A stretch of 64,000 nt of DNA from Bacillus sp. 103mf (GTDB lineage Bacteria > Bacillota > Bacilli > Bacillales > Bacillaceae_G): NCBI RefSeq assembly GCF_900116295.1, contig NZ_FPAF01000004.1, positions 1-64,000 on the forward strand, written 5' to 3'. The position numbers and the translations under genes are program-made. Under the pieces are notes generated by a model that saw only the letters and a program-made list of their open reading frames with translations, ran no database searches and had not been told where the DNA came from. Each line of letters opens with the position of its first letter. Within the stretch, counting starts at the first letter, position 1. This document shows positions 23,435 through 34,531 of the stretch, piece after piece.

Positions 23435-23698
23435 TAATAAAAACAAAGCATTGAAGGGAACAAAGTAGTGTTTATCCTCCCTGTTATAGAGAGCTGATGG
23501 TTGGTGGAAATCAGTACAAAGGTAAACATGAATTACAGTCCTGGAGCATCTTTTTCGTAGTAAAGACAGATATCTTTATGAAGGAAAAGACGGTCAAAAT
23601 GATCGTTAACAATGAAGAGAGGTAGACGAATGTGTCTACAACTAGGGTGGTACCGCGATAATCATCGTCCCTACTGATTGGATCAGTAGGGATTTTTT
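23435..23698 (+). promoter_or_regulatory. T-box riboswitch 1 (Tyr, UAC specifier)
   Basis: The leader has stem I (GAGAGCTGATGG, GGTTGGTGG), specifier TAC at 23534-23536 in GAATTACAG, the T-box TAGGGTGGTACCGCG at 23643-23657, and a terminator CCCTACTGAT / ATCAGTAGGG with a T run ending at 23698. Uncharged tRNA-Tyr should stabilise the antiterminator and switch the operon on. T after TGG in the T-box fits tRNA with discriminator A, as tRNA-Tyr has. Confidence 0.92.
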
Positions 23699-23732
23699 GC
23701 ATATACGCGGACCTACATGATAATAAAATAAT

Positions 23733-23988
23733 AAACGCAATGATAGGAAATAGAGTAGTGGTTGTTTCCCTGTAACAGAGAACTGGTGGTTGGTGTGAAC
23801 CAGTACATAAACAAGCATGAATTACAATCCTGGAGCATCTTTTTCGTAGTAAAGGCCGATGTCTTTATGAAGGGAAAGACGGTCAAAATGATCGTTAACA
23901 ATAAAGAGAGGTAGACAAATGTGTCTGCAACTAGGGTGGTACCGCGATAATTATCGTCCCTACTGATTGGATCAGTAGGGATTTTTTT
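23733..23988 (+). promoter_or_regulatory. T-box riboswitch 2 (Tyr, UAC specifier), tandem
   Basis: A second complete leader, very similar to the first, with specifier TAC at 23823-23825, T-box TAGGGTGGTACCGCG at 23932-23946 and terminator ending in a T run at 23982-23988. It lies between T-box 1 and the DAHP synthase gene, so both must be passed for expression. Confidence 0.92.
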
Positions 23989-24108
23989 ATATATTTCATA
24001 TGAGAAATCGTTATCAACCTTGTTTTGTTATAAGTATCAAGTTCAGAAAATAGGGAATTTTCAATCCCTTATTATATAAATTTAAAAAGATACAAGGAGG
24101 AATTTTCA

Positions 24109-25185
24109 ATGGGAAATCATGAATTAGAACAATTACGTAAACAGGTGGATGAGATTAACTTACAACTTCTGCACTTATTGAATGAGCGTGCAAAGGTTGT
24201 ACAAGAAATCGGACAGCAAAAGAAATTGCAAGGTACGAAACGCTTCGATCCTGTTCGTGAGCGTGAAGTACTCGATATGCTTGCAGAGCATAATGAAGGA
24301 CCATTTGAAACATCTACAGTGCAACATATTTTCAAAACAATTTTTAAAGCCAGCTTAGAACTGCAAGAAGATGATAATCGTAAAGCCTTATTAGTTTCAC
24401 GTAAAAAGAAACAAGAAAATACGATTGTTGATGTAAAAGGTGAATTGTTAGGAAGCGGCGTGCAAACGTTCATTATGGGGCCATGTGCAGTGGAAAGTTT
24501 AGATCAAGTTCGTCAAGTTGCTCAGGCGATGAAAGAACAAGGAATCAAATTAATGCGCGGCGGTGCGTTCAAACCGAGAACATCTCCATACGACTTCCAA
24601 GGATTAGGAGTAGAAGGGCTGCAAATTTTACGCCAAGTAGCAGACGAATTTGATTTAGCGATTATTAGCGAAATCTTAAATCCAAATGATGTAGAAATGG
24701 CACTTGATTACGTTGATGTGATTCAAGTAGGCGCTCGTAATATGCAAAACTTTGATTTATTAAGAGCGGTAGGAAAAGTGAATAAACCAGTATTACTGAA
24801 ACGTGGTTTAGCAGCGACAATTGATGAATTCGTGAATGCAGCAGAATACATTATTGCACAAGGAAATGATCAAATTATTTTATGTGAACGAGGCATTCGC
24901 ACATATGAAAGAGCAACGCGTAATACGCTTGATATTTCCGCAGTTCCAATTTTAAAGAAAGAAACACATTTACCGGTTGTTGTAGATGTAACGCATTCAA
25001 CAGGGCGAAAAGATTTACTTTTACCAACTGCGAAAGCAGCATTAGCAATCGGTGCAGATGCCGTTATGGCAGAAGTGCATCCAGACCCAGCGGTTGCTTT
25101 ATCAGATTCAGCACAGCAGATGGATATTCCGCAGTTTCATGCCTTCATGGAAGAGTTAAAAGGGTTTAAAAATAAGTTATCATAA
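24109..25185 (+). CDS. aroA: Bifunctional chorismate mutase / DAHP synthase
   Basis: The first enzyme of the shikimate pathway: DAHP synthase joins PEP and erythrose-4-phosphate. Residues 1-90 form an AroQ-type chorismate mutase ([23 protein letters not shown]), which in Bacillus serves as the feedback sensor for prephenate and chorismate. Residues 110-358 form the DAHP synthase barrel ([37 protein letters not shown]). Length matches Bacillus AroA (AroG). AAGGAGGAA precedes the ATG. Controlled by two tandem tyrosine T-boxes. Confidence 0.95.
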
Positions 25186-25191
25186 TAAAAT

Positions 25192-25452
25192 AAACATTGC
25201 GTTGATAGGGAAGCAGTAGCATGTATCTTCTTGTTTCAGAGAGCTGATGGTTGGTGGAAATCAGTACAGAGATATATGTGAATTACAACCCTGGAGCATC
25301 TTTTTCGTAGTAAAGACGGAAGTTTTTATGAAGGAGAAGACGGTCAATATGATCGTTAACAATAAAAAGAGGTAGACACATTTGTCGATAACTAGGGTGG
25401 TACCGCGATTATTGTCGCCCCTACTGAACAGAATCAGTAGGGTTTTTTTTAT
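25192..25452 (+). promoter_or_regulatory. T-box riboswitch 3 (Tyr, UAC specifier), inside the operon
   Basis: A third leader lies between the DAHP synthase and chorismate synthase genes. Specifier TAC at 25284-25286 in GAATTACAA, T-box TAGGGTGGTACCGCG at 25393-25407, and terminator CCCTACTGA / TCAGTAGGG ending in eight T. It gives the downstream genes separate tyrosine control. Confidence 0.92.
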
Positions 25453-30192: not shown

Positions 30193-30218
30193 ATTTGCGA
30201 AAAGATATTCTGGTGTGT

Positions 30219-30350
30219 TATATAAATACAAATAAAAAAACGACATAAAAACCCTCTTTCTTTATAGGGGGGAGGAGAGCATCTGGCCGTGCATAGCAGC
30301 GGTCAGGGCCTTTTTCTGCCACGTGCAAGGTAAGGAGAAAGCGAGTTCAT
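30219..30350 (+). repeat. Family A repeat, copy 6 (3' part lost)
   Basis: The left end and centre are present (TATAAATACAAAT, AGCATCTGGCC, GCGGTCAGGGCC). The copy stops after GAGAAAGCGAG and lacks the right terminal repeat. The remaining roughly 195 bases to the MFS gene are AT-rich promoter-type DNA. Confidence 0.8.
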
Positions 30351-31780: not shown

Positions 31781-31812
31781 ATAAAGTGAAACTTCCATCA
31801 GTGGGGGATAAA
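31781..31812 (-). repeat. Remnant of a bcr1-like element between ATAAA repeats
   Basis: ATAAA, then GTGAAACTTCCATCAGTG and GGGG, then ATAAA. The 22-base core matches the GTGAAACTTCCATCAGT terminus of the full copies, so this is probably an internal-deletion remnant that kept its target duplication (TTTAT on the other strand). Confidence 0.7.
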
Positions 31813-31880
31813 AGAGAAATGGGAACTGATGCATAACGTAAATCAAACGGTGAATAACGAAATAATAAGAGTTAATTCAT

Positions 31881-31908
31881 AAAAAAAAGACCTAATAATA
31901 TTAGGTCA
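31881..31908 (-). terminator. Perfect hairpin with A-run, terminator-like on the minus strand
   Basis: GACCTAAT AAT ATTAGGTC at 31889-31907, preceded by eight A. It would work as a minus-strand terminator, but no minus-strand gene enters here. Confidence 0.55.
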
Positions 31909-32236
31909 GAAGAATAGGGTAACCACATATTAACATTTTTGTCAGTAGAGGTCTATATATATCATATTGAGAAAAATAAAAGCGACTTGTGCCGAAAATA
32001 GGAGAATAAACAAACGAATGCAATTACGTGAAGGACTACAGGATAGAAATCTACATAGAGAAGTTGATCCGGCGAAACGTATTCAAGATTCCACTAGAAG
32101 ATACATTGCTCATATCACTTTTAGTTTTAGAAAATTTCAATCACTCTTTTTTGTTTTTTATCACGGTTAATAGCATTTATTTGATCAAACTTTATTTAAA
32201 AGTTAAAACAAAGGCATTATTTGATGGAGGTGCAGT
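31909..32236. other. Stretch without a supported gene
   Basis: Two overlapping short frames (from 31967 and 32028) lack ribosome sites. One contains RMQLREGLQDRNLH, faintly like the start of Spo0E-type phosphatases, but the match is too weak to name. Near 32226 a good ribosome site (GGAGGTG) precedes ATG 32237. Confidence 0.4.
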
Positions 32237-32246
32237 ATGAAAAAAG

Positions 32247-32526
32247 TTTATCCCGCTATTTTGGGGCAGTAATACTCCCATCTCAAAATTCAGCGAAAGC
32301 ATTGTCCAGCTCTAGCGGCTAGAATCTCCGGTCGTTTCGCCCCCTCGGACGAGGCAAAAAACGCCTCTCTGTCAGGGGCGTGGGCGTCCTGCGATTCTGG
32401 GCAAGCCGCTTCCGCTTTTCTAAAGAAGTTAGGTGGGAGATAAACTGCTGGCATGCGCCCGATTGGTGAGGGCTGATAATCAGTGGGGGATGAAGAAAAC
32501 CTCCACTGATTAAAGTTTCACTTTAT
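32247..32526 (+). repeat. Family B (bcr1-like) repeat, with a nested repeat
   Basis: TTTAT at 32247-32251 and 32522-32526 flank a 270-bp element with the family B start (CCCGCTATTTTGGGGCAG) and end (TAAAGTTTCAC). About 121 bp of a different repeat sits inside it; without that the element would be about 149 bp, normal for the family. Confidence 0.88.
32301..32421 (+). repeat. Family C repeat nested inside the bcr1-like copy
   Basis: Starts ATTGTCCAGCTCTAGCGG and ends CGCTTCCGCTTTTCT. It is much GC-richer than its surroundings, with hairpin arms CCCCTCGGACGAGGC / GCCTCTCTGTCAGGGGC. A related sequence lies at about 60030-60153. Confidence 0.8.
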
Positions 32527-32616
32527 GTAATGTTGGATGTTTGGAATATCAGTACATTACAGCAGCAAGAAAAAAACTGAACAAAATCATTATCTTGTAG
32601 AAAAGGGGAATGAGAG

Positions 32617-34267
32617 ATGTTAAATTTACAAGGAAAATACAATGAAGCAAAAGTATTTACTAATCATGTTGAAGAGATTGCCATGGGGCAAATTATTGAC
32701 CTTTGTAACCAGGAGTTCGTCAAAGACAGTAAGATTCGTATTATGCCAGATACACATGCCGGAGCTGGGTGTACGATTGGAACAACAATGACAATTCAAG
32801 ACAAAATCGTACCGAACTTAGTCGGGGTTAACTAATCGGCTCAGACTTTAAACTACTCACTCAATTGACTGGGAACCCTAACGTAAAGTCGAGGGTAATC
32901 AGCAGCCAGTGGTCATGGTGACATGATCGAATGGTTCAGAGACTTGTATCAGGTTGGCAGACTGGGATACAGAATTATTCCTCATCCTTTTACTCTGAAA
33001 CGTGGAATAGACGATGGTTGCGTTACATTAATAGTAAGAAACTATTAATGTATAAGGAGTGATAGAAAATGAGTAAGAAGATTAATGATGGTTTGACAGC
33101 AAAACAAAGGTATTTTAAGAAGGTCTACGAGAATGCACCCGTGATAGCGACCTGTTTTGTTCAAACTGTCATAGACTTCACCATTGGCTAGAAGAGGAAT
33201 AATTAATACGGTGAGCCTACGGTAGAGACTGCATATCTCGATGACCGTAGAGAAGGTATAGTCCACTCCTCAAGAAATTGGGGGTTAAGTGTGATATTGG
33301 CTGTGGTATGGAAGTTGTTGTGATTAATAAGAAAAAAGAAGAAATTAACTTTGATCAATTAGATGACACGATTCGTAAATACGTTCCAAGCGGCTTCAGT
33401 ATCCGAGATAAAGAACATAGATTTTCAAAAATGATTCATTTTGACGGCGTGAGAGCACCATTTACATTACAACGTGCTCAAAAGAGTATTGGTACCCTTG
33501 GAGGAGGAAATCATTTTATTGAACTTAACGAGGATGATAAAGGTAATGTATATATCGTTATTCATAGCGGTTCCCGTAATTTAGGTAAACAAGTAGCAGA
33601 GTACTATCAAAACTTCGCATATGAGCAACTTATAGATGTTAAATCTGTTAAAGACGAAATCATTGAACGATTAACAAAAGAGGGCAGACAAAAAGAAATA
33701 CATGAAGCCTTACGAGAAGTTAAAAAGCCTAATGTTCGCAAAGAACTAGCTTATTTAGAAGGTCAAGGGTTCAAAGATTACATGAATGATATGAAGATTG
33801 CTCAAAAGTATGCTGAATTAAATCGTAAAGCAATGATTGATGAAATCGTCACTAGAATGGATTGGAAAGTAACTGATCAATTTACTACAATCCATAACTA
33901 TATAGACATGGAAAATATGATTCTACGAAAAGGAGCTATTTCCGCTCAGAAAGATGAACGAGTAATCATTCCAATCAATATGAGAGATGGTTCAATTATC
34001 GCATTCGGTAAAGGGAATCCGGATTGGAACTTTTCTGGACCACATGGAGCGGGTCGTATTATGAGCCGAAAGAAAGCTAAAGCGGTACTTAACTTAGAAG
34101 ACTTTCAGAATACAATGACTGATGTTTGGACAACTTCTGTTGCCGAAAGTACTTTAGATGAAGCACCAATGGTATATAAACCAATGGATGAAATTGTAGC
34201 AAATACTAAAGATACAATTGATATCAAACGTATTATAAAACCGATTTATAATTTTAAAGCTAATTAA
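32617..34267 (+). CDS. rtcB: RtcB RNA-splicing ligase, two exons split by a group I intron
   Basis: RtcB joins RNA 2',3'-cyclic phosphate or 3'-phosphate ends to 5'-OH ends, using GTP and Mn(II). Exon 1 is 32617-32828 and exon 2 is 33292-34267. Joined, they give 396 codons in one frame (395 aa, usual size). The junction restores NLVGV-DIGCGM, which holds a metal-binding Asp and Cys. Later motifs are GTLGGGNHFIEL, IHSGSRNLGKQV and GPHGAGRIMSRKKAK, with the guanylated His. AAAGGGGAATGAG precedes the ATG. Without splicing, translation stops two codons past the junction. No RtcA or archease gene is beside it. Confidence 0.92.
32829..33291 (+). ncRNA. Group I self-splicing intron in rtcB
   Basis: The 463-nt insert shows the conserved group I elements in order: P (AATTGACTGGGAACCCT, 32863-32879), Q (AATCAGCAGCCA, 32897-32908), R (GTTCAGAGACTTG, from 32934) and S (AAGGTATAGTCC, 33253-33264). 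GACT of R (32941-32944) pairs with AGTC of S (33260-33263) as P7. P1 forms between exon AGTCGGGGT (32820-32828) and GGCTCAGACT (32838-32847), placing the usual U-G wobble at the 5' splice site. The intron ends in G 33291. The position inside a protein gene is unusual for bacterial chromosomes. Confidence 0.95.
33069..33202 (+). pseudogene. Decayed HNH homing-endonuclease gene within the intron
   Basis: AAGGAGTGATAG precedes ATG 33069, which opens MSKKINDGLTAKQRYFKKVY and stops at 33191 after 40 codons. A neighbouring frame then reads FCSNCHRLHHWLEEE to a stop at 33202, which looks like the C-terminal end of an HNH nuclease (CxNCHR...HHW). The middle, with the catalytic core, is missing and the frames disagree, so the nuclease is dead. 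It lies between R and S, probably in the P8 region. Confidence 0.8.
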
Positions 34268-34269
34268 TT

Positions 34270-34531
34270 CAGAGATGTAGTTGACTTGAGTATTGAGCGC
34301 GCTGAAAAAGCCGGCGATGTATTTACCAGGGAAGATTTAACATATAATACGCGGCGATACGTCGATGCATTCGAAGTAGATTACGTGGTTAATAATGTTG
34401 GGACCATAATCAGTTTGACGAGATTATGCGAAAATTAGGAGTGCAGCCGGTCAGCAGTTGTGAGATTATGACGGATGCTTTTGCCAACTTGAAATCGATT
34501 GTATATTACGGCAGTGGGCATCCGCATAATT
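34270..34531 (+). pseudogene. Remnant of an unrecognised gene, frameshifted
   Basis: One frame reads RDVVDLSIERAEKAGDVFTR and on to VVNNVG; another picks up HNQFDEIMRKLGVQPVSSCE and ends YYGSGHPHN with a stop at 34531. They differ by a one-base shift near 34400. There is no start codon. The stretch is clearly GC-richer than its neighbours, hinting at transfer from another genus. I do not recognise the family. Confidence 0.6.

Follow-up and report, generated by a model that had tools for sequence, protein, structure and literature searches.

Group I introns of Bacillus species have been described in the recA, nrdE and nrdF genes, and some of them resemble phage introns (PMC3984707). The same article also names flagellin genes, and the word rtcB is absent from its main text. 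Moreover, group I introns occur in the Bacillus phages SPO1, SP82 and Bastille, in the case of SPO1 and Bastille in the DNA polymerase gene, according to titles cited therein (PMC3984707). Here, we describe a group I intron in the rtcB gene of Bacillus sp. 103mf, which is located in the first 64,000 nucleotides of contig NZ_FPAF01000004.1 (the window). Judged by description, it resembles the recA, nrdE and nrdF introns in being a group I intron of a bacterial protein gene, but the host gene is rtcB. It can likewise be compared by description to the SPO1, SP82 and Bastille introns, which are group I introns accompanied by homing endonucleases, whereas gene and site differ.

The same gene is interrupted at the same nucleotide in the phages CM1 (LC785692), vB_BsuM-Goe20 (OM728301) and vB_BsuM-Goe27 (OM728304), and the intron core of the window copy is 92.5% identical to that of CM1 and 80% identical to that of the two Goe phages. 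The phage inserts are longer (825 nt in CM1 and 841 nt in the Goe phages). In all three records, rtcB is split and no intron feature is given at the site. In LC785692, rtcB is annotated as two genes (CDS BEU14704 and BEU14706), the larger of which starts after the D and the C of the metal site. A literature search on group I introns in connection with rtcB, tRNA-splicing ligase, phage RNA ligase and the cereus group, and on rtcB inteins, returned titles and opening parts of abstracts in which the site is not named. Tourasse and Kolsto are said to have surveyed 29 genomes of the cereus group in 2008. Since this survey may list the rtcB intron under a hypothetical protein, no first report is claimed here.

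The interrupted rtcB gene

The rtcB gene of the window lies in two pieces on the forward strand (32617 to 34267) and encodes the RNA-repair ligase RtcB. The initial annotation had placed a group I intron at 32829 to 33291, and both sequence and structure support this site, its two junctions and the reading frame. Exon 1 (32617 to 32828, forward strand), which was aligned to relatives, comprises codons 1 to 70 plus the GT of V71 and matches the Pfam family RtcB (PF01139, E 1.3e-6). Exon 2 (33292 to 34267, forward strand) supplies the T of V71, continues with DIGCGM to the stop and matches the same family with an E value of 5.4e-55. As claimed, removal of the 463 nt between them leaves 212 and 976 nt, that is 396 codons including the stop, and the intronless relative L085 encodes an RtcB of 395 aa in a single frame, which is the residue total of the two joined exons. 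Exon 1 ends with GTC GGG GT at 32828 and exon 2 starts with T GAT ATT GGC TGT GGT ATG at 33292; the insert thus splits the gene between the GT and the T-GAT of VDIGCGM, at the metal-binding motif. The frame of exon 1 runs into a stop 7 nt inside the insert. A decayed reading frame, as it looks by eye, lies directly 3' of rtcB (34268 to 34530). Moreover, a repeat that occurs many times in genome G012 and a few times in G007 is present just upstream of rtcB (32422 to 32534), and a dispersed repeat with many copies in G007 follows aroA (30218 to 30345).

The comparison with intron-free rtcB genes agrees with this arrangement. In 122 of 135 loci (L001 to L135), the matches to the two exons are 6 nt apart, corresponding to the V and D codons, and no insert is present. 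The remaining 13 comprise six loci with an insert at the same site, three with an in-frame insert at DIG/C, two with inserts or breaks at other places in RtcB (L129 and L131) and two incomplete alignments (L133 and L134). The six same-site inserts are found on five contigs (L001, L002, L003, L088, and L084 together with L090 on one contig).

The metal-site motif of RtcB would be a target of two kinds of mobile element, located 10 nt apart. Whereas the intron splits the V codon, the DIG/C inserts downstream of it are in-frame protein inserts of 936 nt directly before the C (L007:1034-1975, L103:4211-5152 and the same place in L105). They look like inteins and give weak matches to intein_Nterm that stay below the curated cut-off, and we regard them as putative RtcB inteins. 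The rtcB gene of Goe20 and Goe27 also contains a second group I intron near the GGGNHF motif (L002 and L003:4049-4296; 67 to 72 bits in Rfam), which is followed by a LAGLIDADG ORF in L002.

Structure of the intron

As judged from its sequence and predicted fold, the insert (32829 to 33291, forward strand, 463 nt) belongs to subgroup IA of the group I introns and has a degenerate endonuclease ORF inside. The unaided minimum-energy fold contains P1, P3, P4-P6, P7.1, P7.2, P8 and P9, with a z score of -3.95 and none of 100 shuffled sequences folding equally well. The structure used here consists of the minimum-energy pairs, while P7, one pair of P1 and P9 were set by hand. All elements are on the forward strand. 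In P1 (32820 to 32847), which is present in the fold and in the alignment of related introns, 32820-32829 pairs with the internal guide at 32838-32847, and the wobble U32828-G32839 is located at the 5' splice site. P3 (32856 to 33215) is formed by 32856-32861 and 33210-33215 in the alignment of 14 introns. The P4-P5-P6 domain (32866 to 32935), the P7.1 hairpin (32945 to 32971) and P8 (33217 to 33250) are present both in the minimum-energy fold and in this alignment. The hand-placed P7, which harbours the G-binding site (32939 to 33264), joins 32939-32944 to 33260-33264. In the P7.2 stem (32973 to 33204), 32973-32983 pairs with 33194-33204, and its loop contains the endonuclease remnant. P9 (33268 to 33283) is the weakest helix with 76% of the cells paired. 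The intron ends with a G at 33291. The P3-P8 and P4-P6 core is present, as are the U-G wobble of P1 and the terminal G that had been claimed. P7.1 and P7.2 between P7 and P3 have been named, together with P9.1 and P9.2, as features of subgroup IA2 (PMC4227781). The window intron has the P7.1 and P7.2 hairpins at this place; P9.1 and P9.2 were not seen in it, and its subgroup is given as IA without a finer class.

The pairs were evaluated in a MAFFT alignment of 14 introns from the same site (82 pairs, 1147 cells). Altogether, 92.9% of the cells were paired, 26 of the 82 base pairs had changed on both sides, and the covariation score was 0.241 as compared to 0.127 after shuffling. Each of these three measures was unmatched in 500 shuffles, a control that is lenient because the aligned introns are kin and those of L002/L003 and L088/L090 are near-identical. 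Sliding the partners by one to three columns left 33-42% of the cells paired and zero to six pairs changed on both sides; this control leans to the structure, since the latter was derived from one of the aligned sequences. Among the five pair measures, the number of further pair types showed no excess (47 versus a shuffled mean of 49.9). All cells of the six P3 pairs were paired, and one of these pairs occurs in four types (GC in seven, AU in four, UA in two introns and GU in one). The five P7 pairs are invariant in all 14 introns, which neither supports nor refutes pairing. In P1, the U-G pair at the 5' splice site belongs to two tandem U-G pairs that are both invariant (14/14), one exon-guide pair covaries (UA in ten introns, CG in four), and the position G32824-A32843 is unpaired in four introns including the window copy. 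The register of P9 seems to differ between groups of introns.

Detection by covariance models

A match to a group I covariance model had been named beforehand as a check of the intron, and the outcome depended on the model. In a scan of 901 nt around the insert, Rfam RF00028 aligned to 32809-33284 with 36.7 bits (E 1.3e-7), which is below the curated 50 bits. A scan of the whole window at the gathering threshold reported three T-boxes only, and not the intron; these T-box leaders, which include a tandem pair, are located at 23442 to 25425. The same-site intron was also reported in none of 13 same-site loci at this threshold, the second intron of Goe20 and Goe27 being the only one found. With permissive filters, the same-site intron of L090 reached 57.5 bits, and that of L144 had no match at E 0.1. 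Part of the score deficit of the window copy may be due to the long P7.2 loop, which the Rfam consensus lacks, as L090 without the ORF scores higher, yet L144 is unmatched. By contrast, our covariance model R1, which was built from ten same-site introns with the window copy excluded, matched the latter end to end (32817-33297, 254.4 bits, E 1.7e-75), and no second match arose in the window at E values up to 1. Over 199 genomes, R1 yielded three full-length and 22 weaker matches; 12 of the weaker ones were examined as loci, and rtcB was alongside in none of them.

Distribution of the same-site intron

The intron is real, but it is not the one-off for which it could be taken from the window. One copy each is present in eight of the 19 whole genomes of the Priestia taiwanensis family, the nearest family compared, and a set of 397 genomes drawn from the order yielded the same eight genomes plus a ninth match of just 48 nt. 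Among the phages, three of the 149 records with a match to exon 1 carry the intron, and among 51 loci of viral contigs it was found in L088 and L090. The intron belongs to a mobile family that is common to Bacillus phages and relatives of Bacillus sp. 103mf. The compared genomes match the window DNA at 66-71% over tyrA-aroA. A close rtcB (at least 62% identity) is present in ten of the 19 family genomes, of which G001 and G002 lack the intron. It had been argued that RtcB depends on splicing to be made. This would apply to the present gene, but seven of the eight intron-bearing family genomes encode a second, distant RtcB (45-48%).

Searches with the 5' junction were narrower. The pattern used for the viral contigs, whose spacing fits the family-genome type only, gave seven loci, none with the P7 of the intron or the DIGCGM codon run; a similar pattern, whose spacing admits neither the window type nor G021, gave seven matches in the 397 genomes of the order. 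Among plasmids, rtcB retrieved 19 records, none of which covers 80% of the query, and the L144 intron retrieved one record with 61 nt. Plasmid synteny was not found for L165, and for the window it was limited to two records, over about 1.5 kb in each, at the ABC-transporter gene.

Endonuclease remnant and movement of the intron

In CM1 and in Goe20 and Goe27, the P7.2 loop carries ORFs of 164 and 170 aa, respectively. Those in CM1 and Goe27 have matches to HNH endonucleases (PHROGs phrog_2255, E 1.9e-22 and 2.5e-22), while Pfam gave nothing above cut-off for the loop ORFs. The insert proposed as a group I intron proved to include a remnant of such a homing endonuclease gene (33069 to 33191, forward strand), which consists of 40 codons and a stop and was recognised by alignment with the phage ORFs: it has the same beginning, after which the core is lost and the frame shifted. 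No family match was obtained for the remnant itself, and an intact homing endonuclease gene is absent from the window intron. Ten short same-site copies have gaps at the columns of the endonuclease ORF.

The window and CM1 copies share 92.5% of the intron core, whereas the exon DNA is 74.8% and 69.8% identical. In the comparison of the window with L090, the values are 90.2% for the intron core and 83.3% and 87.1% for the exons; the window intron is thus nearer to CM1 than to L090 by a small margin. Relative to exon 2, the divergence of the intron is about a quarter in the window-CM1 pair and 0.6-0.8 times in window-L090 and L143-L144. The mismatch in the CM1 comparison indicates that the intron has crossed between distinct rtcB lineages. 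Vertical inheritance together with rtcB, with no such move, would suit the family genomes, where identities in the three pairs compared are 0.91-0.94 for the intron and 0.87-0.95 for the exons and the intron is somewhat more conserved in most pairs. However, it does not account for an intron that is far more similar between the window and CM1 than the exons at 70-75%, nor for the mixed state of the four nearest viral contigs (intron in L090 and L088, none in L085 and L086), and we consider it improbable.

The window rtcB probably arrived with a prophage. Two fragments of the segment 31882 to 32086 match a phage-type region of L085, in which a DnaC-like loader is encoded as well, and rtcB follows tail and endolysin genes in the L090 record. 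The stretch from 31800 to 32620 had no match in phage records.

Splice sites

The 3' junction at 33291/33292 is supported by P10, in which the exon UGAU pairs with the intron AUCG; this element is weaker in seven of the eight family genomes, where the guide is AACG. With the junction kept in frame, the last intron base is G in three of the 14 introns (window, Goe20 and Goe27) and A in the other 11 (CM1, L088, L090 and the eight family genomes). To our knowledge, group I introns very rarely have A as the last base. The A-ending relatives would gain a terminal G (in L144, CG replaces AG) if exon 1 ended with U32829 and the intron with the G of AAG (33289), giving one extra residue before DIGCGM (C here, Y in the GUA-ending relatives), and the invariance of both tandem U-G pairs of P1 would be compatible with such cuts. 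Nevertheless, this shift is very unlikely: V immediately precedes D in 111 of 117 instances of the motif, 108 of which have VGV, P10 would pair poorly, and the copies of Goe20 and Goe27 could not use these sites in frame. Moreover, three of the six instances without V are read-through of the intron.

Selection on rtcB and proposed history of the intron

Both window exons are open, with a dN/dS of about 0.04 in the comparison with L090. The 28 pairs formed by the eight family genomes have medians of 0.033 for exon 1 and 0.044 for exon 2; L088, whose exon 2 aligns in two frames, was left out of the test. These ratios indicate strong purifying selection on both exons, which argues that the exons are joined and that the window intron most likely splices. 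That the intron has ceased to splice and the gene is a pseudogene of a decayed prophage, as the fragmentary match to L085 and the decayed endonuclease ORF might suggest, is very unlikely in view of the open exons, their low dN/dS, the formed core helices and the terminal G.

Taken together, we consider it highly probable that a subgroup IA intron of an HNH-mobile lineage entered rtcB, lost its endonuclease core and still splices to give an RtcB of 395 residues. The lineage would have been mobile through an HNH homing endonuclease encoded in the P7.2 loop, and we infer that homing by the phage enzyme brought the intron into the window gene, with the rtcB lineage of the Bacillus phage CM1 or a similar one as donor rather than recipient. 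The core of the endonuclease would then have been deleted, leaving an intron that is presumably unable to home by itself. In the transcript, the intron would fold, bind guanosine in P7 and be cut after U32828, which is paired to the guide in P1. U32828 would subsequently be joined to U33292 at the 3' site that is aligned by P10 behind the terminal G.

Implications

The intron without an endonuclease has been kept in eight of the ten close rtcB orthologues found among the 19 family genomes. If the A at the end of most known members of this intron family made the second splicing step slow or conditional, the intron could act as a switch that limits the amount of RtcB; this idea is speculative and unlikely, and the window copy has a G. 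The A-ending relatives provide a natural test of how strict the requirement for a last G is. Moreover, the presence of the intron accounts for the annotation of rtcB as two genes in phage records such as that of CM1. With rtcB, the bacterial protein genes that harbour group I introns now include one for RNA repair, and a single intron is seen in three stages, with an HNH gene in phages, a gutted gene in the window and none in chromosomes.
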